Shown one piece after another: positions 1,652 through 58,900 of a stretch of 64,000 nt of DNA. The notes beneath the pieces were generated by a model, which was given only the letters and a program-made list of their open reading frames with translations, ran no database searches and had not been told where the DNA came from. Location of the stretch: positions 1,841,702 to 1,905,701 of the forward strand of contig CM060857.1 in assembly GCA_030737835.1 (NCBI GenBank), given 5' to 3'. The position numbers and the translations under genes are program-made. Each line of letters begins with the position of its first letter. The stretch's first letter is position 1. This DNA comes from Acorus gramineus. Its lineage: Eukaryota > Streptophyta > Magnoliopsida > Acorales > Acoraceae.

Positions 1652-2510
1652 AGGGAAAAATAGATCTAGCTCCATGAAAACTTATGAAAATCAGAAAAAG
1701 TCCCTGTAAAATTGGTAAATCCCATCAGATCCCTATCTTATTAGATAATATTTATTTTAGTACATACAACTAACCAGATGTGTGGTTAACCCTAACCATA
1801 CATGATAAATTACTGTTATACCCTTTTAAAATTTATTTTATTTGTTAGAAAAAATTGATATAACTCCCTGAAAACTTACGAAAATTGAAAAAAGTCCATG
1901 TGAAATTTAAAAATCGTCTTAACTCCCTAAAATCTTCTAAAAATCTTAAAAAATCATATGATTCTCTGAAAATATATACTAATTTATTTAAATTTTACTA
2001 AACAAATTATAGTTTTATAGTCAAGGTGTTATGCTTTTTATTGCTAGTAATTTTGAGTTAAAAATGTATTATAAAATTTTGATTTGGTTTTTAAATTGTT
2101 TTCTCTACTGATTTTGTAATGGAGTTAATGAAATTGTAATTTTTTTTGTCCAGTCTCTCTAATGAGATTGAGGAGGGAAAAAAGTTGAAAAATGTCTCAA
2201 TTTTGTAGATCAATCGAGGTTTGACGGATTTTTTTTTTTTTTACAAATGAGGATGACATTTCTGGACATGAGGATGTTGAAAAATGACAGGGATATTTTT
2301 GTCTTACAAAAGAACTAAATCTAATTTTATAAAGTTTGTAGGGATTGATCCAATTTTAGTAAGTTTTCAATGACCTATTTCAATATACTCTTGACCGGGG
2401 ACTAAATTCGTTAACTATATACAATTTATGGGGATCTAAGATGATTTTTTGATTTTAGAGGGACTTTTTGTGATTTCAAGAAGATTTTAGGAAGTTAAAA
2501 AGATTTTCCT
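1652..2510. mobile_element. MULE-type non-autonomous element, family A, copy 1 (859 bp)
   Basis: The two ends are imperfect inverted repeats of about 85 bp. The left end begins AGGGAAAAATAGATC and the inverted right end begins AGGAAAATC; both then contain AAAAAGTCCCT. A probable 9-bp target duplication flanks it (ttaaatatt at 1643-1651, ctaaatatt at 2511-2519, one mismatch). The body has no coding capacity. A colinear copy lies in opposite orientation at 20598-21461, and rearranged relatives lie at 30687-31371. Long inverted ends with 9-bp duplications are the Mutator-like pattern; the superfamily is inferred from that alone. Confidence 0.7.
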
Positions 2511-2853
2511 CTAAATATTAATATAGATGAATTTTTTTCTTATATTTGATGTAATTATTTTATATATCAAATAATATGATATTTAAAAGACAATTTTTTT
2601 TTACAGCTAACTTTAATAAAATACAAAAAAAATGAAATATCATAAACGAAAAACATAAAGAAGATACTCGTTCTGTTTTGAAAAAAAAAAAAACTTTGTT
2701 GCTCTGAAAAAAAAAACCAATCCCGTGATTTAAATAGTGCCATGCAACATCATCTATCCTGTCAAATCATAAAAGAATTTGAGAAAATTAAGGGATTTGA
2801 TTTTGATTAAATCATTAAAATTTAAATCGAATTAATTAATAAAATTTTAAACA

Positions 2854-2885
<32 letters not shown>

Positions 2886-3174
2886 TAGTAATTATGAATT
2901 TTTTAAATAATAAAAACAATTAATATATTGGGTAAGAATCCAATGAATAGGTAGTAATAGATTATGATAATTCGCTGATTTTACAATAAAATGCCACCCC
3001 GTCGATTCGAAGGAAAAGAAAAAAAAAAAACAACCAAGGGAAAGGGGTTTTATGTAATTTTTCCCTCTAAAACAAGGTTGTCCACGCTTTGCACGATCCA
3101 TCATCATCATCTCCGATCGTGTTGAGCGTGCGAGAGAGGGAGAGGGAGAGGGAGAGCGAGAGAGAGAGGCATCG
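2511..3174 (+). promoter_or_regulatory. Upstream region and 5' leader of the lipoyl synthase gene
   Basis: This AT-rich spacer holds a CA microsatellite running into a TA microsatellite at about 2852-2884. A GA-rich tract at about 3133-3169 lies just before the ATG. GA/CT-rich leaders are common in plant 5' untranslated regions, so the tract is probably transcribed. No single convincing TATA box can be chosen among the many AT-rich candidates. Confidence 0.4.
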
Positions 3175-6100
3175 ATGTATCCTCGGCTCATCTCCGTCGC
3201 GAGGCGCTGTAAGCCCTCCAAATCCTACACTTCCGCCTCCATCGCCGTCAGGAGCCTCTCCTCCGCCCCGCCTCCCCCGCAAGCCCTCGACCGGGACCCA
3301 TCAACGCCACGCCCAAAAAACCTAGCCGACCTTCGTAGGCGGCTGGAATCGGAGTCTCCGGCGCTGTCGGACTTCGTGCGGCTGAGGGAGAGCGAGGAGT
3401 ACTCGGTGGCCGTCGGATCGAAGAAGAACCCCCTCCGGAAGCCCAAGTGGATGAAGGAGACGATCCCGGGGGGTTCCAAGTACGCGAAGATCAAGGCGAA
3501 GTTGAGGGAGCTGAAGCTACACACGGTGTGCGAGGAGGCCAAGTGTCCAAACCTCGGCGAGTGCTGGTCGGGCGGGGAGACCGGGACCGCCACCGCCACG
3601 ATCATGATTCTTGGTGACACCTGCACCCGCGGTTGCAGGTAATTTTTTTTTTCCCTCTGTTTTCTTTTAAAAAAGTGAAATTTTTTTTATTCGTGCATTT
3701 GTTTTTTTTTTTTTTTTTTGGATAATTGGCATTTGTGCATATATTTTTTTAGTATGTGTGGAATTATGGTTCAAACTTGTGCATAATTTGGGCCTTTTTG
3801 GGTCTGAATTCTGCAACTGAAATTGTGATGTTGGTTTTCTTCATTTATTGATGTGTTGATTTTGAAAATTTAAAAACATCAGGAAATTGGGTGAGGTCTT
3901 GTTTTGGTCAAGGGGTTGATAGGATTTTGAAGAAACAAAATTGATTGTCATCTAAAATGGGGCTCTTTTTGGTGTATATGTTCCTTTTTCTTTATATCTT
4001 AAAGAAACCAACGAGACTTGTTTAACTGGAAAAGATGAGAAGCTCCTCTTTTTTGCCTTAAGAAATTTTATTAGAGAAAATCCACAAGCACCAGTGATTG
4101 TAAGCGCATTCTTTGACGAGCTTGATATAAAGCAGTTTTTGTGTTTTTATTCCTTTCTAGATTTTGTAACGTGAAGACATCACGTACTCCTCCCCCGCCA
4201 GATCCAAATGAACCCACTAATGTTGCCGAGGCAATTGCATCTTGGGGCCTGGATTATGTTGTCATCACCAGTGTTGATAGAGATGATTTGCCTGATCAAG
4301 GGAGTGGTCACTTTGCCGAAACGGTGCAAAAGTTGAAGACTCTGAAGCCAGATATTTTAATAGAATCCCTTGGTATGTACTTGTCAAAAGTGTTTCATAC
4401 CAATCTTCCATTTGTACTCCGAAGAAGAAAAACAATTCAAAAGTTGCTTGAGTTGGGTTGCTTTATAAATTGATAAATCCATCCAACTTGTGTGAAACTT
4501 GCAAGGATCTTGTAAGATGTCAGCTCTTGCTGTGTGGATAGCTGATTGAATCCAGTTGGATAATTCATTTATTATCTTGACTTGCATTCTTGCCTAAACT
4601 CAATAACTCGTTGTTGGACTTGTTGAACAAGATCTCGATCATGTGGTGGTTTACACTGATATTTTGACTGAATCCATCAAGGTCCTTTTTTAACATCTGT
4701 TCATGTCTATGTGAAATTTTGCAGTTCCTGACTTCCGTGGAGACTCCAGCTGTGTAGAGAAAGTTGCTACTTCTGGTTTAGATGTTTTTGCACACAATAT
4801 TGAGACTGTTGAGGAGCTTCAGAGCATGGTTAGAGACCGTCGTGCCAACTTCAAGCAATCCATTGAGGTTCTAAAGATGGCGAAAGATTATGCCCCAGCA
4901 GGGACTCTTACGAAGACGTCGATAATGTTGGGTTGTGGGGAAACGCCTGATCAAGTGATAAGCACAATGGAGATGGTGAGGGCGGCAGGCGTTGATGTCA
5001 TGACATTTGGGCAGTACATGAGACCTTCCAAACGGCACATGCCAGTCTCAGAATACGTGACTCCAGAAGCATTTGAAAAGTACCGATCAATTGGAATGGA
5101 TATGGTATGTTTTGTCTTTTTATATGCTGCATCCTCAACAGTTGCTTTAGTGTAGAAATTTAATTGTCATTGGAAGCTGATCCATTTGAAATGGGCTTAT
5201 AGATTGACATTTTAATAGTCTGATAGATTCAAGACAAAATGTTCATAAGATTTAGGGGAGCCATGTCATGATATTGCCAAGGCAACGGAAAGGGCTTAGC
5301 CAAATCATTCATGACAGGGTCAAAGGCGTAATCTATTATCAAAGACTTCTTACCTGTAGCAACAGTAAAAAAAATACAAGGTGGTATTCCTATTCTGTGA
5401 AGGCTGGAAAAATTGGAAGTTCTTTTCTCTGGAAGACATATTGTAGGCTTAATGATGATGTCTGAATCCTAAGATTATGTTGGTTGAAAGTCATGCAAGT
5501 AGGTCATATATGATGAAAGTATGTTAATTTGGATGCTTGGCATTAAAATAAATGTGTGTAATAGCAACTCTAATAGGAGTAAAATGGCAAAACATCTCAG
5601 CTGTCAAATGTTTGCTAATAATTGTGCCTTTAAGATCAACAATATTGGGTTGAGAGGAAACCTTATGAAATGGATGGAAGTCATTAGCAAGGATACGGAA
5701 GATTCCAACCTAACCGCAAGATTAACCTCCTACAGGAATAAAAATGATGGGATGTCGGATTTCTAAAGCTATGTAAATTTGTAGGAGGGAACCCCTTTTG
5801 ATGTGATCTACCGCTCAGTTATTAAACTAATTTTGAAGCTGATGCACCCCTTACTTAGCTGTCGCTTCTGAATTAGCACTTTGGCAGCATCAATTTTATT
5901 CACTTCCCAATGAGTTCCGTATCTTTCAAATGATGGAGAGTTTCAAACATTATTTCACTTTCCGATCTGCCTTATTTGATCTACAAATTCAATACCATTG
6001 TCCTTGTAATTTCTTATGATATGCATATATAAGTGCCATGTTAGGAAGAGTTGAAGAGGTTCAAAGTATTTTTTGAACATGATGAATGTGAATACATTTA

Positions 6101-7140: not shown

Positions 7141-8478
7141 TTTTTTTTTTTTTACCGCTTATAAGAATTGAGAATGTTTTTAATTTCATAATTCTGAAAA
7201 TATGAAATTAAATTAGATAAAAATTTAATACGTGTCTACTCTAAGTTTATAATTATAAATTAAAAAATTATATATATTTATATAGACTCCATTTTTTTTT
7301 AAAAAAATTACCGCAGAGAAACCAGTTTCTGTTGAACGTATGGTTTGAGGTATGGCATAATTCAGATGGTCCTTTTTTTGTTTTTTACTGAACGTTAGGC
7401 ATGTGATTTTAATTGTATTTCAAATCTTTCATTGATTTTTTTCATTATTTATTAGTTTTAGGTCGGTAGAGTACAAACAGTACAATATGAACAAGGTGTG
7501 GACCTAATATTTCAACAGGCGGTTTTAAAAAAAAAAAAAAAATTTCCCGTCAAGGGTAGTGCGGTTTCAATATTATGTGAATGTAATCGAAAGAAGGGAA
7601 CTAAAAAATGACACCCATTTCATTTGAACTAATAATAAAAGGATTAACATGCGTGTTATTATTTTATATCACTAATCCAAAATCAATTTAAGCAAACCTG
7701 GATGAAGGCTTCGTTTGGAAACACCTCTTGGGCCGCTGTGTCTGCCGAATAAGGGGAGAAACGCCGAAGTGGTTTTTCAGAGTGTTGGTGAAGACACTAA
7801 AAATATACACACCAATCGCACACTTGCCTGTCAAAGTAGAAGCCGGAAAACCTGTTTGTTTGAGCGTTTACGCCCATCGCCGCCAATGCTACGAAACCGA
7901 TAAAGTAGCATATACTATATTATCATAGTATATGTGTTTCTATCATAGTGTATGGTGTAAAAAAAATTTTAACACAAAAAAGATACACTAATTTATTTCA
8001 GTATATACTTCATTTTATATAACTGCATGTACTTCAATAAGAAGGTGCATGATTTTTTTTTAAATAAATAATCGATGTAGACTACAATTAAGACTGAATA
8101 TAATCTAAAACTATCATTTTCCATCAAATCCATGAAAGGACCATGTAACCCAAAAAAAAAAAAAAATCCATGAAGGACTACCAAGTGTGAGCTCTCATTG
8201 TCCAATTCAGGACCACCCCTCTTACAACCAATGCTTTGCAGATGAATTTGTCAATATATGCCACCTACCCATTAATAATAACGACAAGAACAAAGCATTA
8301 TCACCTGCAGTTGTCCAATGTGGAACCACTGCTGTCTGAAACTAGAGTTAAATGCATTTAACTTCACAAAAGTTAGCGGACATCTAGATAAAAATCCAAA
8401 CAAATGCCTGAAATACCCTTCTCACTAAAAACACCCATTTTTTCTTCTTCTCTCTCAACGGTCCGATTTCTAACCATT
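7141..8478. other. Intergenic DNA, no gene seen
   Basis: AT-rich sequence with A/T homopolymers. A block at about 7700-7910 is richer in GC and starts with a gcttcgtttgg-like string typical of MITE ends, but I found no matching partner end or target duplication. Two short overlapping ORFs in that block lack domain-like composition. Confidence 0.45.
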
Positions 8479-8757
8479 GCAATGTGTGATGATTTAAATC
8501 CCCTTCCATTCTTCCTTCTTTTACTGTAAAAATAAGTCAACATTCCATGCATTTGTATGGAATGGTTGCAATGTGTGATGATTTAAATCCCCTTCCATTC
8601 TTCCTTCTTTCATTGGAAAAATAAGTCAACATTCCATGCATTTGTATGGAATGGTTGCAATGCTTTGGAAAAACAACATCCATTGCAATGCGTGATGATT
8701 TAAACCCCCTTCCTTCTTTCATTGTTCCTCATTCCATGCATTTGTATGCTTTCTCTT
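8479..8757. repeat. Tandem repeat, 89-bp unit, about 3 copies
   Basis: The unit starts gcaatgtgtgatgatttaaa and contains a palindromic attccatgcatttgtatggaat-type core. Copies start at 8479, 8568 and 8657. The third is interrupted by about 30 bp that restate the unit start (gcaatgcgtg at 8685), and the last partial copy lacks part of the centre. The first two copies are nearly identical. Short ORFs on the minus strand here are products of the repeat. Confidence 0.85.
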
Positions 8758-50473: not shown

Positions 50474-50660
50474 TAAAACAAATTTAAAATGATATGATTT
50501 TCCATATATCTTATGAATGATACCCCTATAACTAGTAGTCTTCTTACTCACTAGAAAATGATTCCATCTTGACCAAAAAAATAAAAAAATGATTCCCATC
50601 TATAACCAGTGGCTTTCAAAACTCCAAAGAATTAGCTTTTTTTTTTTTTTTTTTTTCTAA

Positions 50661-50878
50661 GACTGCGTTTGGATATGAGCTTGAAATGTTAAGATTATGG
50701 AAATCTTATGTTTTAAAATCAGTTTTTGAAAATCTATGTTTTATTAGATTTTCAACCAGAATATTTTTTTGCTTAAAAAGAAAGACAATGTTTTAATCTA
50801 AAAACTGAAAACGTGTTTGGATATGAGTTTGGGAATTTATAAATACAGAATCTATTTAAACTCATACCAAACAGGGCC
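50661..50878. mobile_element. Tourist/PIF-type MITE (218 bp)
   Basis: The left end gactgcgtttggatatgag and the inverted right end ggccctgtttggtatgag are clear. The 3-bp TAA duplication (50658-50660, 50879-50881) is the PIF/Harbinger signature. An internal copy of the end motif (cgtgtttggatatgag) occurs at about 50812-50827. Confidence 0.75.
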
Positions 50879-51246
50879 TAAGTTGGCGTCCAAAGTGGTT
50901 GAGGTTATTTAATAATCTGTGAATTATCCCCATCAACTGTATATTTGTGTTTTTTAGTTTAAAATTATTTCTTGGAGTGTGTTGTGAAGCTAGTCATTTG
51001 TTGAGTGGTACTTCCGCTTCTTTTTTGCCCTTTTTTTGTTTTAATGGAACTTTAATTAATTACGAACAGTTCACATTTTTTTTAATTATACACTTATTAT
51101 TGAAATATATGTTATTATATGTGATAAAATTGATACTGACATACAATAATATGCACATATTTTTCTTGAAAAAAAAAATTCAGCCGATCTCAGCAATAAT
51201 AAAGGAGCTGAAGAAGATAAATAAGAATAGTCAACTATAACAATTC

Positions 51247-52233
51247 GGGCACCGATATTCCCACCCACATAGTTATTCACCACACTCCTAAAAAATCAGA
51301 ATGTGTTTTTTTTTTAAAGAATGACTCCACCCCGATCCATTCGACTTTATGAAGTCATCCATTGTGTGACAGGACGACATCACAGAGTCGAACTGATCAT
51401 AGAGATCTAAGACTCTCTTTATAGCCCATTCGACTTTGTGAAGTCGTTCATTATTTCATAGGTCGACATCACAGAGTCGAACTACTTACAGAGACCTAAG
51501 GCCCTCTCTACGGCCTATTCAACTTTGTGTTTTAAACAATGTATTCGCGTGTTATAGCATTCTCAATGAAATAATATCTTCAAAAGATGATGCGTTGTTC
51601 AGTATCATGCAGGACAAATCACATGATGTAGTCTTTGGATATCTCTTTGTGATGTCGTCCATTATGTCACAAGTCGAATGGGCCGTAGAGAGGACCTTAG
51701 GTCTCTGGGATCAGTTTGACTATGTGATGTCAACCTGTGACATAATAGTAATGTTTTAAAAATCGAACCGTTCAATTAACCAAAAAAACGAATGAGTCAA
51801 GAGTCATTAGTTCAACTGTTGGGTCAACTAGATTTGAATCATGATATTATTATAATATAATAATTTTTTTAATTATCATTACTAAATAAAAACATAAAAT
51901 ATTTTAGAAAATCTTTGCATAAATGTTTTACTTAACATCATCATTGACGATTTCACAAAGTCGAATGGGTCACATGAGAGCGTTAGGTTTCTGTGACCTG
52001 TTCGACTCTGCAATGTCGAACGGAGTATATAACTGACGACTACACAAAGTCGAATGGATAGCAGAGAGGGCTTAAATCTCTGTGACCAGTTGACTATATG
52101 ATGTCGACCTGTGACATAATGAATGACTTTACAAAGTCGAATGGGTCGATGGGTTCACTTCTTAAAAAAATTACATTTTTATATTTTGAAAGGGGTGGGT
52201 TGAAGAAGTGTGTGAGTGGAAAAATCGGTGCCC
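51247..52233. mobile_element. MULE-type element built from GTCGA repeats (987 bp)
   Basis: A perfect 9-bp duplication, taacaattc, flanks it (51238-51246 and 52234-52242). The terminal inverted repeats start GGGCACCGAT and run about 90 bp. Inside the left end, 89-bp units begin at about 51338 and 51427, with a partial one at 51516. Each carries attcgactttgtgaagtcg and cgacatcacagagtcgaa, which can pair with each other. Inverted units occupy about 51645-51740 and 51945-52160. There is no ORF. A stray related piece lies at about 55450-55557. Confidence 0.83.
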
Positions 52234-52242
52234 TAACAATTC

Positions 52243-53403
52243 AACTCCACTGATTAAACGTGTGAGTATCTTACATTACATGTACACACTTCCTCTCACC
52301 GACTAGGGAGTTATTTGCGTTTTCTCTCACTTGCCTTTTCACATTCAATTATTTTTATAGTCCAAAACAAAGTCTTATATATTTAATTAAAAATTTAATG
52401 AAGAATGTGCATTGTTAGACGAGATACATATCTCATTAAATTTTTTTATAATTACTAAAATTATATTCATTTAATTTGAAATGAAACGATACACAATTTT
52501 CATAAACTCATATATATATATACTTAAATAGATAATGTTTACTATTATTGAAAAAATAGAAGCATATGCTGTCAGCGTTTTAAATTGTAAAAATGACTTA
52601 GTTTGAATAACCATTTTCCTTCCAATAATAAACAAGTCACGTCACCCAGAAGACATCCAATACGTTTTTGCTCAAAAAAAAAAAAATGGTTGTTATTTAA
52701 TTTTAGGGTTAAAGACATCCAAGTCCTTATAAACATAGGTAATACCATATAAGTCCTTATCAAAGTTGGGGCAGACGTACAAGTACTTGAAAATTCACAA
52801 AAACCCATATACGTCCCTGGTTTCAACAAAAATTAATCATAACTCAACCTACCCCACTTAACTCTAACCTATAACAATGAAATGATTAAATTATTATTAA
52901 ATTTTTAACCATTTTTAATCAATACTTCAATGGAAATAAAGAAACATAAAAAGTCTTACAAAGATAATTTGATATTTGCATGTACTAATTGTTTTTATTA
53001 TTGTTTATGAAGATTATAATGTCTACATGATTAGATGGTTATAAAATATTCTGTCAAATTTGAATGAAGTTTTAATCTGAGGATAATAATTATGTTTTTG
53101 TGAGTTTTTAGAGACTTGTGTGCCTACCCTGTTACGTTTTTAGGAATAAACAAACAATTCGAAAGCAAAGACACAAAAATTACGTGGTTTGACAAATCTT
53201 GCTTACGTCCACTGAGCATACCAAAGATCAATCCACTATCAATGAAAAGTTTTTTTACAATGGTCACACTGAAGATAAAAATCCTAGAACCTAATGAAAA
53301 ATATGAGATGTCCTTTTATACTGACATCTCATTAAGGGTAAAAAAGTTAATACATGAAAGACAATAAAAAAAAAAAAAAAAAATTCTCGGGATGCTGCTC
53401 TCA
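52243..53403. other. Intergenic DNA with possible LTR-derived sequence
   Basis: AT-rich with no gene. The stretch at about 53130-53400 (ttacgtggtttgacaa, cttacgtccactgag) resembles words common in plant Copia-type LTRs and may continue past the hAT insertion to about 54540. No paired end was found, so this is only a suggestion of a solo or partial LTR. Confidence 0.35.
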
Positions 53404-53411
53404 GACCCAGC

Positions 53412-54264
53412 TAGGCCTGTCAACGGGTCGGGTCCAGACCCGGACCCGACCCGATCCGGACCCGATTACACGTGTAATATACCCGACCCGATTTGGACCC
53501 GACCCGAGTTGGACCCGACCCGGCGGACCCGAACAAACAAACGGGTCGGGTCCGGGTCCACCCCGCCCCGACCCGTTGGACCCGTTGGACCCGACTGTTT
53601 TTTTTAATATATGTTCATATATTATAAGACCATTAGTATTAGTTGATACATAATTTTATTTTTTACTTAACTTATTTTTATATCTACAAGTTCATAAATC
53701 ATAATCATAACAAGCCTATAAATCGGTTTGTTTTGGACAATTAATTTATTAGCATTTGAATTTGTATGATTAATTAGTTTGTTGCATGATTTATGTTTAT
53801 TATTTAGGTTAATATGTTAGTGTTTATTGTTTTGAATGTTGTTTAGGTTAATATTGTTTTGAATGTTGTTTAGGTTAGTTATGTTTATTATTTAGGTTAA
53901 TATGTTTTTTATGTTAGTGATTATTGTTTTGGATGTTGTTTAATAATTCATTTACTTCTTTTGAATTGTATAAAATTATATTCAAACAAAGTCTCATTAA
54001 CAATAATGTTTTATTACAAAAAATTTCAAATAGAATGATAAGACAAATAAATACATGAGCTCTTCTCTTTTTTTTTTTTTTTTTACCCAACCATCCGGGT
54101 CGGGTCGGACCCGGACCCGACCCGGGTCCGACGGGTCCGGGTCCGGGTCTACATTTCTCCGGACCCGCCGGGTCCTGGGTTGGACCCGGACCCGCCGGGT
54201 CCTGTCACGGGTCGGGTCCGGGTCCACCCCGACCCGACCCGGACCCGACCCGTTGACAGGCCTA
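53412..54264. mobile_element. Non-autonomous hAT-type element rich in GGGTCCGG repeats (853 bp)
   Basis: Near-perfect inverted ends: taggcctgtcaacgggtcgg on the left and the same sequence inverted on the right. An 8-bp target duplication is gacccagc (53404-53411) and gaccctgc (54265-54272), one mismatch. Both subterminal regions are dense arrays of cggacccgac-type words around an AT-rich centre with short taggttaatatg-type repeats. There is no transposase. Pro/Arg-rich ORFs in the arrays are artefacts. Confidence 0.82.
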
Positions 54265-54582
54265 GACCCTGCGAATTGACTGGATAGCTCGATCCCCGCG
54301 AGCTCAACGGAGAGCTCGACCTCAGTCCAACCTTGCGTAGCGCTAATAATCCTTTGCGCATATCACTAGGCTCCACAGTTTATAACATACCTTAACTTTT
54401 ATAGAGAATTACATGGGATTACCTATGTTTACAAGGATATAAATGTTGTTGATTCTTAATGTTGTTGTTGATTCCTATCATTATTCATCATAAATATACC
54501 ATCAAAACCTAGTAATATAATACATTATTGTGGTGGTACCCAATTTTGACTCTCTGGATAAAAAAGAACCCCGTCAATTTGA

Positions 54583-55030
54583 AGGAAAAAAGGGAAAAAT
54601 CTATAGAACCCTCTAACTTTTTTTAAAATCCATATAACCCCCTTAAAACACCTAGTAAATTCAAATGACCCCTTGCATAAATTTTTTTTTTTTATAGATG
54701 ATGAATATTTTATGAATATTATGTTTGATTAATCCGGATAGAAAACAAAATATACCAAAAAAATCATATAATGTGTTAAAAATGTGAAAAATCTTCTATA
54801 AATGATGATTTTACCTCTCCGAATAGGATTTTATAATATATCTAAAGAGGGTAAAATTGTTATTTTCATAGGATTTTTCACATTTTTAACACATTATAGT
54901 AATTTTTTAGTATATTGTGTCTTCAATCAAGATTAACCAAACGAAATATTCATAAAATATTCATCATCTACTAATGAAAATTTTATTTAGATTTATTATG
55001 TGTTTTCAGGAGTTATAATATAGATTATAA
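54583..55030. mobile_element. MITE family B, copy 3 (longer variant)
   Basis: It shares the gggaaaaatctatagaaccc end, the ttaacacattata block and caatcaagattaa with the copy at 21471-21820. The interior repeats inverted sequence around aatgtgaaaaatc. Its right boundary is not certain. Confidence 0.55.
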
Positions 55031-55449
55031 AACATAGAGTTTGAGATAATGTATTTAAATTGATATATTTGATAACTCGTTTTAACTTTCGTTTTTTAAA
55101 AAATTAAAAGCTATTTTTTTATTAGGTTCCGAACACACCCTTACAGACGAACACAGTCGCCACTAATAAAAGAAAAACGCCTTAAAAATATTTTACGATT
55201 AGACGGTTGTGATCCGTACAAAGCTTTGATGATGATTTATTTAAATAAAATAAATAAATAAATAAATAGGAGACAAAAAGAGGCCTCGTCGAAAAATAAA
55301 AAAAAATTAATAAATTTTTTTTTTTTTTAAAAAAGATCACCAGACAGAAAGCGAAAACAGAATCGTATCTTGACCGTCCCTTCCCGTAGATTCAGGGGTC
55401 CACTGTTCTCCCCCAATCTCAAATCTCAACCGTGTCTTTATGATCAGTT

Positions 55450-55557
55450 GAATTAGAATATAAGTGGGTCTTAAGTCTTTATGATCAGTTCGACTCTGTG
55501 AAGTCAATATGAGATACATGCGACGACTTCATAACGTCGTACGGAGTTATAGAGATG
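55450..55557. repeat. Stray GTCGA-family fragment
   Basis: It contains gatcagttcgactctgtgaa and cgacttcataacgtcgtacg, matching the unit of the 51247-52233 element. No ends or target duplication are seen, so it is a fragment or a remote copy. Confidence 0.5.
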
Positions 55558-55991
55558 GGTTGTATTTTAGTTACCTCCATGTTTTTTAATGTCTTTAATT
55601 AATTATCAGATATCTGCTTTGTCAATGATGTGGTGATCTTAGCAAAACTAAAATAATGACCATGTTTTGAATTCGGCGTCTCAACAAAAAAAAAAAAAAA
55701 AAACCATTGAAAATTTATCATGGTTTGAATAAATCTGGTCATCGAATCCACAAAATGGATGCATGAATTTAAGACGCACATTTTGCCACCGGGCCCAACT
55801 TTTTTTCCCTTTATCTTTATCATAATCGTAAGTAGTAATTCCACGTCAAAAAATGATGAAGCTTCCCTTTTTGTTCATCTTTCTTTGTAAAAATTGCCTG
55901 AATCTCTCCTGTCGATACGAATTTGGAAGAAGAGATTGAACAAAAGGAAATCCCAATTCATATATATAAAAAGAAGAAGAGAAGAGGAGCG
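55558..55991 (+). promoter_or_regulatory. Upstream region of the Mpv17/PMP22 gene
   Basis: AT-rich promoter-proximal sequence. An in-frame upstream ATG at 55923 would extend the protein by 23 mostly charged residues, which would spoil the transit peptide, so the ATG at 55992 is preferred. Confidence 0.4.
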
Positions 55992-58900
55992 ATGGCATCC
56001 GCTGTCAGCAGTGTCTCCTCCTCGCAGAGATTTCTTCCCCTCGCGAAGGCCATCAAAGAAACCAAACCCAAATCGACAATCTCCTCCTTGAAGCCTCTCC
56101 CGGGTTCATCTCTTCTCAGCTTCAGGAGTCCCCGCAGGCTCTCCAATCTCGATCACTCGACAAAAAGCCCCAGCTTTTGTAGTACCCACAAGAGGATCTT
56201 GGCGGTTGGGTCCGTCGCAGATGACCTCGACGTGATTCCGGTGAACAGCGTCGACTCCACCGACCACCAGCACGGGATCACCCCCCGCATCGGCGTGGAA
56301 GTGGAAGGAGAGGGCTTGACTCAGGTGGTTGGGCTCGCTTTCGAGAGTGGCGGAAGCGTCGGAGATGTCGGTGGCTTTTCGACATCGTCTTCTTCTTCTT
56401 CGTCACCGTCGCCGTTGGGGTCTCCCGATGGGAAGGATGAGACGCGGAGGTTGGTCGATCGGGTGATCAACGCGTCGATTGTGCTCACGGTGGGGACCTT
56501 CACCATCACTAAATTGCTCACCATCGACCAGGAGTATTGGCATGTGAGTTGATAATTTTTTGTTTTCCTTTTTTTTTTCTTTTCAATAATCATGATATTT
56601 TTCATATGGTTGGTTTCTGTATGCATGTGTTACAATTCACCGCTCTTTACCTACCAATTGTAATTGTATACCATGATTTTGGCAAAACTTTTGTTTTGGC
56701 ATACTAGCAGAACCCATCTTGTTGAGATTAGGACTGATGTATATGTTTATGTTATGATGAAAGAGTTACAATTCACAATCAGTTTTTGTCATATTAGATC
56801 CGCAGCACTAAAATTTAATCGTCTTCTTGGAAGGTTAATCAATTATTATTCATGGGTAACTGAGATTTTCTATTGTGTTGAATGGGGATAACCTTTTAAT
56901 GTTTGCTATGATTCCTTTTGGGTTTGTTAAATGCCTACTTCAGCTATACTGGTGCCCGAAGTTTGGTTATTTGATGCTTTTCCAAATAGAGGATTTCTTT
57001 TTTATGTGATCATGATCACTGTATTGGGTGTTTCCTCAGGTCTGTTGTTTCATCAATACTCAGAGAAATCATTCATTTTCAATTTCTTTTCAGTGTGGTT
57101 AGTAATTTTTGTAAGTGATTCAAACAACGCTTTATTGTGGATATATTTATTATTCAGTGCAGAAACAAAGTATATTAATATAGTCTTGTTACTTTGGGGT
57201 CTGTGATTTGATTACATTATGTTAAAAAACTATGAATGATTTGATCCATTTGTTGACATAGGAATACTTGCAGGTGACCTTTTTGGTAGACTAGTTGTAG
57301 ATGAATAATGACACTGGTGACTATGTTTCCAATGTTTTCCCCTCTTGCTCTATGCCTATAATGCAATATAATCTGACAATGCATGTAATCTTCTGTTTTT
57401 TATTTGAAGTCTGTTAGATTCTGTGGTGTTCTAAAGATTTTGTCTCCTTGTCCTTTGGATGGTTGTTTCTGACATCTATATGTTGATTTCATGGCCTTTT
57501 CAATTTTTTTTTTTTTTAACGTCCTTGGATTTTTCTCTTTTCTTGCAATGCTATTTGCTGTATGTCGTGGCCTGAATTTGAGCTAATCCACCTGTTAAGT
57601 AGTCATGCATTACGATAGGGCTCAGTTGGTTTTATCTCATATTTTTTGGCGTTTGGCCCAGTACTAAATTTTTGCTGATCATTCAGGGTTGGACCCTGTT
57701 TGAGATTCTGAGATATGCTCCCCAGCACAACTGGATTGCTTATGAAGAAGCTCTGAAAACAAATCCTGTTCTTGCTAAAATGATGATCAGTGGAATAGTC
57801 TATTCCATAGGAGATTGGATTGCGCAGGTAAAATTGTGAATTTCAGTTGAACATATTGTGAAAAAGACATTTGTCTTCTTTCCATTGAGGTTCAAATTTT
57901 CAGTAGATAATCATTTGTTGAATTTGCAGTGCTATGAAGGTAAACCTCTTTTTGAATTTGATCGAGCTCGAATGTTCAGATCTGGCCTTGTGGGGTTTAC
58001 TCTTCATGGGTCCCTTTCCCATTATTATTACCACTTATGTGAGGTCAGTGCAATCGTTGAAATAAAAATGGAGTTGATCTTATCATTATTTTTTGCAGTC
58101 ATTTTCTTGAGTAGTAGATGATTCTCCCAAAAACTGAATTTTTGCTGCTGATTTCCAGTATCTTTTCCCTTTCCAAGACTGGTGGGTTGTTCCAGTAAAA
58201 GTGGCTTTTGATCAAACTGCATGGTCAGCGTTATGGAATAGTATCTACTATGTGGTTTTGGGCTTATTGCGTTTGGAATCACCAGTCAATATCTTCAGTG
58301 AACTGAAGGCAACATTTTTGCCTCTGTTAACTGTAAGTAATGGTCTTTATATCTTTCTGTCTTTTTCTCACCGATCATTGGGTTCTGGGCCTTATTGGTT
58401 GAAAACATGAATTCTAGATGGATTTCAATTTCATTAGCAATCAAGTTCTTGTTTATCTCTGCGTTTACAAAAAAATGATTGCTGACTTTGTTTTTCCCAC
58501 AATTTTGTATTATTACACAACAAAATTTTTCTTGGTTCTTCAGTTTAAGTTTATTGTAATTTTTATTTTTGGAGCTCAAGTCTTGGTTCAAAATTTAGCT
58601 TGGAAATTAAAAGAACATTTTTACATAATAACCTACATCTATCTAATGTAATTTAATTGGCTGCCTTAAGGACTAGGCTGGTGGGCTAATTAAGGATAGC
58701 AGAAATAGTGAACAATAGTAAAACATGAGATGGACAATTCAATCACACCCATAATATATCCAATTGGTTACTGACTTGTCAACATCAACTATAGAAACAA
58801 CTTGAATCTTGTTTGTGTTGGATGAACATGCATCTTTGTATGTAGAATATTTTATTACAAGTTTGAGTACAGTTTCTTTTTTCCCCATTGAGCTGCTGTT

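Follow-up and report, generated by a model that had tools for sequence, protein, structure and literature searches.

The window, as we call the whole 64,000-nucleotide stretch of the Acorus gramineus genome analysed here, lies on contig C11 of an assembly of 398.6 Mb in 137 contigs, which was the genome searched in this work. It contains a 987-bp putative non-autonomous Mutator-like foldback element (Table 1) that starts with GGGCACCGAT at position 51247, ends with ATCGGTGCCC at position 52233 and is flanked by exact copies of the 9-bp sequence TAACAATTC; the perfect duplication, the inverted ends and the span of 51238–52242 are exactly those of the original prediction. The terminal inverted parts of this copy are about 283 bp each, are 75% identical and are built of 89-bp units, whose positions come from a profile built on 155 unit matches and re-run on the window. 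The left array has a period of 89 bp over 51337–51529. The proposed arrangement, with direct units in the left half and inverted units in the right, is slightly too simple, because an extra inverted unit and a short direct unit piece (51645–51677) lie near the middle of the element. The two complementary GTCGA-containing arms that had been described are present in each unit, as the profile also matches the opposite strand of the units. A stray piece that had been placed at 55450–55557 is real and corresponds to a single unit match running from 55543 to 55463, beside which there is no recognisable element end. This unit lies about 380 bp upstream of an open reading frame that starts at 55923, for which no Pfam family was matched. 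A different tandem repeat at 8477–8662 of the window also has a period of 89 bp, with two copies at 96% identity, and gives no match to the unit profile.

Table 1 Features of the element and of the stray unit (window positions)
Feature	Position	Strand	Details
Whole element, putative non-autonomous Mutator-like foldback	51247..52233	+	987 bp
9-bp target-site duplication TAACAATTC, left and right copies	51238..51246 and 52234..52242	.	exact match
Left terminal inverted part (GGGCACCGATATTCCCACCC end and array)	51247..51529	+	inverted, 75% identical to ~51954–52233
89-bp unit 1	51337..51425	+	53-bp motif at 51340, 19/20 positions
89-bp unit 2	51426..51514	+	53-bp motif at 51429, 20/20 positions
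Core separating the terminal parts	51530..51953	.	51536–51632 found again, in inverted form, behind the arrays in longer relatives L011, L020 and L026
Inverted unit near element middle	51682..51767	-	57.5 bits; left edge of motif decayed
Right terminal inverted part	51954..52233	-	inverted match to left part
Inverted 89-bp unit	51970..52057	-	75.5 bits
Inverted unit	52061..52144	-	53-bp motif at 52089, 17/20 positions
Stray single unit	55463..55543	-	56 bits, E = 1.7e-16; 53-bp motif at 55489, 18/20 positions

Each 89-bp unit is organized around a 53-bp palindromic motif, TTCGAC-N8-GTCG-N17-CGAC-N8-GTCGAA, in which two CGAC-N8-GTCG dyads face each other with their starts 33 bp apart. Across the whole window, 17 or more of the 20 defined positions of this motif are matched only at the four places given in Table 1, and no other place matches more than 14.

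The element belongs to a large family. The best 40 of 617 candidates from a whole-element search were scored, and they comprise the window copy and 39 others at 85–93% identity, mostly near full length. A 20-mer from the left end matched 351 genome places with up to three mismatches, compared with 4 for the reversed control; a right-end pattern derived from the window copy alone was too special and gave 3 matches. With a recognisable right end defined as one within 8 mismatches of 23, 37 of the 46 loci in the 1-kb class have such an end; the remaining nine were left out of the duplication count. Duplications of 9 bp with at most two mismatches flank 27 of the 37 copies (14 exact, 8 with one mismatch and 5 with two), a count that includes the low-complexity duplication of L016 as well as L005 and L008, which carry an identical exact duplication and may be one insertion. 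Displaced control flanks reach the same level, at most two mismatches of nine, in 2 of 399 cases. The duplications within two mismatches are 86% A+T. Together, the 39 other places and the 27 duplications bear out the proposal that the family is non-autonomous, has GGGCACCGAT ends and makes target duplications of 9 bp. Elsewhere in the genome, the related end motif GGGGACCGTTATTTCCACCC occurs repeatedly (for example, at C2:8637610 and C5:24417646) and may mark a cousin element family.

An alternative raised at the outset was that the array is an independent satellite into which a MULE had jumped, in which case genome copies of the array would be found without the ends. We scored the best 40 of 454 candidates from a single-unit search and found that 36 match the element over its full length, lie within 1.5 kb of a listed end or show an end in the fetched DNA. 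DNA was fetched for five unit places lacking a listed end: all five carry one or both ends of the GGGCRCYGATATT kind (up to 3 mismatches of 13), with two carrying both. Because 36 of the 40 scored places tie to the element or to an end, the array belongs to the element and the satellite origin is unsupported, although the stray unit of the window has no recognisable end.

The number of units differs between copies. Near-complete left units number two in 36 of 51 loci and three in six loci of the 1-kb kind (L010, L021, L022, L025, L031 and L035); in longer relatives the number is three to five, or up to six when partial units are counted. In a comparison of 36 two-unit copies, from which L043 and L015 were excluded, the mean identity between the first and second units of one copy is 79.2% (88.6% at best), whereas between copies it is 86.8% among first units and 89.3% among second units. 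Among seven three-unit loci, the identity between middle units is 83%, a figure in which the seventh locus, L052, is misoriented; L052 has a truncated left part, was oriented by its right end and is excluded from the three-unit copies. As units at the same position resemble each other across copies more closely than neighbours do within a copy, the units were duplicated before the copies spread. Judged from these identities, unit number is an old subfamily trait, which would have been set in early subfamilies and copied afterwards. The suggestion that the family grows by unit duplication thus stands in that unit number varies between subfamilies (two, three and up to six); as a current process, unit growth is rejected for the copies examined.

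Five loci (L011, L012, L020, L026 and L046) have the same left end and arrays as the 1-kb kind and different interiors. Of these, L020 is 2397 bp long and has a 9-bp duplication with one mismatch, and a proposed right end gives L011 a length of 5921 bp and a duplication with two mismatches. The right ends of the longer relatives are unlike their left ends. Against the left ends of L011 and L020, the right terminus of the window element aligns with scores of 36 and 44, respectively, compared with 5 and 1 against their right ends, suggesting that inverted duplication of an array-bearing end gave rise to the 1-kb kind. At about 2400–3550 from its left end, L011 contains a G+C-rich stretch with repeats. 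With left flanks that share at least 14 letters and 98% identity over 1.9 kb, L011 and L039 appear to be copies of a single segment; L039 has no array.

By eye, no transposase was recognised among open reading frames of at least 110 amino acids in L011, L012, L020, L026 and L039 and of at least 60 amino acids in L049. We also compared the coordinates of hits to PF10551, the MULE transposase domain (best 150 of 1162), with those of 100 listed ends and 27 longer-relative places, a comparison that left out the 40 full-length places of the whole-element search, and found one pair within 12 kb; it lies on C72, with the two 3.8 kb apart and the element pointing away. A further PF10551 hit (C55:1513922), seen by eye, is about 3.6 kb outside the copy at C55:1509377–1510368. 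Thus, within the best 150 of 1162 candidates and the open reading frames of the six loci, no transposase was found in the family or linked to it.

The family is probably Mutator-like, an assignment that draws on the length of its duplications and on its ends: duplications of Mutator size (9–11 bp) flank 27 of 37 copies, and the window copy has long terminal inverted repeats. The original designation as a MULE agrees with the 9-bp duplications; among the best 150 of 1162 candidates, no transposase was linked to the family. As in foldback elements, the long inverted repeats consist of direct subrepeats that vary in number between copies, and the presence of a motif in tandem repeats of copy-dependent number is a feature shared with the VANDAL/VANC system. 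MITEs are short, non-coding, abundant and uniform in length; the family is non-coding and has a high copy number, but most copies measure about 850–1550 bp and the 1-kb kind falls into several length classes (near 850, 990, 1250 and 1350 bp). The Arabidopsis foldback elements FARE and Hairpin have long inverted terminal repeats with internal subrepeats, as does the window family. A text search of the literature with strings from the element led to no recognised published account of the foldback family; among the matches listed, only GGGCACCGAT occurs, in papers that by title concern unrelated subjects.

The nearest published plan is that of the Tm1 Mutator/Foldback elements of root-knot nematodes (PMC3169594). 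According to the available text, these elements also have target duplications of 9 bp, compound terminal inverted repeats that vary in length with the number of motif units (1–9), and MITE-like members; Tm1 also has transposase-encoding members, of which we found none here. The Tm1 unit is mostly 14 bp long and unrelated in sequence, whereas the unit here is 89 bp and holds two facing dyads. Plant MULEs with multiple long terminal inverted repeats are described as having tandemly repeated terminal sequence, in some cases amplified, and sizes of 1.3–1.4 kb (PMC3310237). As described there, those elements duplicate the whole terminal repeat, whereas the window family repeats an internal 89-bp unit and has its ends once per side.

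Part of L011 led to another kind of repeat, of which two examples, L055 and L056, were fetched. L055 encodes a plant-mobile-domain (PMD) piece (Pfam PF10536, 142.5 bits; cut-off, 34.9), which matched no solved structure in the PDB; the piece in L056 scores 23.8 bits, below the cut-off. Using the L056 fragment in tblastn, we detected PMD remains in 3 of the 11 loci searched (E values of 1e-37 to 8e-28), namely L011 (67% of 91 amino acids), L026 (63% of 98 amino acids) and L012 (67% of 69 amino acids). The other eight have none at E < 0.1, the match in L009 being at E = 0.79, and a 59-amino-acid open piece of L011 gave no Pfam match. Both L055 and L056 carry tandem arrays of an 88-bp unit, which was scored at 29 genome places; in L055 the array lies behind the PMD gene. 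PMD genes have been reported on MULE and Ty3/Gypsy elements (PMC5418596), a situation akin to the PMD remains in our longer relatives and the PMD gene in L055; unlike here, element-borne PMD genes are not connected with any DNA motif array in the available text of that report.

By BLAST or unit profile, the 88-bp and 89-bp units have no similarity worth the name. When their consensus sequences are compared, all 20 motif positions agree, together with 8 of the 33 letters between them, which is chance level, and the distance from TTCGAC to GTCGAA is exactly 47 bp in the window element and in L055. In plain identity, the two consensuses agree at 28/53 positions (the best over rotations and strands), a value that 10 of 300 and 12 of 300 randomised sequences attain and that is thus weakly unusual, so that the case for a shared motif rests on which positions agree; the motif was noticed after both arrays had been seen.

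When the spacings were changed, at least 17 of the 20 positions were matched 116 times at N8/N17 and 38 times at N8/N18 in loci of the window family, with at most 3 matches at other spacings tried; in L055 and L056, 26 matches are at N8/N17 and 1 is elsewhere. Among single dyads of the form CGAC-Ng-GTCG, 159 of 175 in 287 kb of family loci have g = 8, as do all 46 in L055 and L056 and all 8 in a third repeat, L057 (see below); in the family loci, each of the remaining values of g (4–14) accounts for 5 at most. The start-to-start distances of the dyads are 33, 55/56 and 88/89 bp in the window family and in L055 and L056, and 33, 66 and 99 bp in L057. These spacings bear on the idea that the foldback is kept as a source of hairpin RNA from which small RNAs are made. 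The fold prediction that had been recommended gave a very strong fold for the RNA of the element (−416 kcal/mol compared with −232 (SD 8) kcal/mol for 20 shuffles; z = −22), which speaks for that idea and makes the suggested small-RNA source conceivable. However, the fold is strong because of the inverted ends, and any element with 283-bp inverted ends would fold likewise; its energy says nothing about transcription, an Rfam search of window positions 50500–56000 returned no match, and pairing needs no fixed N8/N17 spacing common to several families. We therefore consider a hairpin function very improbable.

Within the window family, the motif shows modest effects of constraint at the level of sequence. 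Across 172 units, its G/C letters are kept at 0.83 compared with 0.75 for other G/C letters (permutation P = 0.036), with 8 of the 12 lying in CpG, and its A/T letters at 0.98 compared with 0.93 elsewhere; C-to-T and G-to-A substitutions make up 75% of the changes at G/C. The consensus of the 1-kb kind differs from that of the longer relatives at 11 positions, none of them inside the motif, where 2.5 would be expected.

The half-motif TTCGAC-N8-GTCG has 2481 matches genome-wide, compared with 611 for the reversed control. The first 100 listed matches, all on C1 and up to 17.2 Mb, were sorted by the sequence between the motifs into classes of our own: 42 are of the window kind, 20 lie in one 88-bp array, 27 are of a third kind and 11 are other. 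Fourteen of the 27 form seven inverted pairs that are 475–482 bp apart. The third repeat is known from one copy read, L057 (C1:2801020–2801720), which has inverted arms of 126 bp at 84% identity, dyads every 33 bp and an A+T-rich core of about 440 bp. Its 33-bp step is the dyad step of the other two families and was absent from the search pattern that led to L057. Separately, a piece of 33-bp dyad array occurs directly outside a 1.26-kb element (L029:1–66).

The filler between the motifs of the third repeat is weakly like that of each of the others (A–C, 10/25, P = 0.036; B–C, 12/25, P = 0.021; C denotes the third repeat and A and B the other two), and distant common descent may therefore explain part of the motif agreement. 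Taken further, the dyads might have no reader at all: the three arrays would be remote descendants of one tandem repeat, and their agreement would reflect inheritance and the selection of comparisons. This filler likeness fits such an account, as does the weakly unusual plain identity of the two unit consensuses. Methylation-driven decay, to which the predominance of C to T and G to A changes points, would however be expected to remove CpG-rich motif letters first, and these have outlasted the others. We regard the absence of a reader as unlikely.

The reading that we prefer, and to which we give about an even chance, is that the family comprises non-autonomous Mutator-like foldbacks, that the dyads are putative sites of an element-encoded protein and that the 1-kb kind came from inverted duplication of the array-bearing end of a longer element. 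Under this reading, the CGAC-N8-GTCG dyads would be bound by a sequence-specific DNA-binding protein made by the element, either a transposase or a PMD protein, and the arrays would, as a consequence, gather several molecules of it. An inverted duplication of the left end of a longer, PMD-carrying element, array included, would have produced two such ends, which the machinery of the longer element could move in trans. That the units are candidate binding sites, as had been suggested, is plausible and is strengthened by the occurrence of the motif in other families.

For the identity of the reader, we consider a transposase slightly more likely than a PMD protein. In the strict form of this proposal, the dyads would be sites for a Mutator-type transposase only and the PMD gene would be a passenger of some longer relatives. 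The arrays lie inside the terminal inverted parts and adjoin the ends, transposase binding sites have been described in MULE ends (PMC3310237), and 8 of the 11 loci searched are without PMD remains at E < 0.1. However, the 88-bp array of L055 lies behind a PMD gene, and no transposase was seen in the 5.8 kb of that locus. We take the strict form to be a real possibility, with the chances leaning against it.

A PMD protein of the longer elements might instead bind the dyads and keep array-bearing elements active against silencing. The analogy is with the VANC proteins of Arabidopsis VANDAL elements, for which an anti-silencing action through tandemly repeated motifs is described (PMC5735166, PMC10398659). 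The likeness extends to many copies of a short motif in non-coding tandem repeats of varying number, in which the motif is kept while the repeats change rapidly (PMC5735166, PMC10398659); the VANC21 motif YAGTATTAY is described there in one orientation, whereas here the motif is a palindromic pair of CGAC-N8-GTCG dyads with a PMD protein or a transposase as candidate reader. A PMD gene and arrays of the same motif occur together in L055 and L056, PMD remains occur in the array-bearing L011, L026 and L012, and an anti-silencing role has been proposed for MULE-captured PMD proteins (PMC5418596). Against this, the literature on PMD examined shows no DNA-binding activity, the L055 piece resembles no solved structure, and a MAIN/MAIL1-linked Arabidopsis motif, given for one promoter as CATGCAGTTT in the available text of PMC9899485, differs from the dyad. 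We hold this explanation to be rather doubtful. In a bolder version, the dyad pair at its 33-bp step would be one address used by several transposable element families, a PMD protein would gather on the arrays and either lift silencing or join the ends, and the 1-kb foldbacks would be parasites that keep little but the address; we put this forward as speculation that is a shade more doubtful again.

In the literature on PMD examined, no DNA target is described; a motif that is common to PMD-carrying and PMD-free elements makes a direct test possible. If a PMD protein binds dyads at the 33-bp spacing, the arrays would be a second, unrelated example of a motif-array system of the VANC/VANDAL kind. 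If a transposase binds them, the family would show a route from a bare pair of array-bearing ends to a high-copy parasite.
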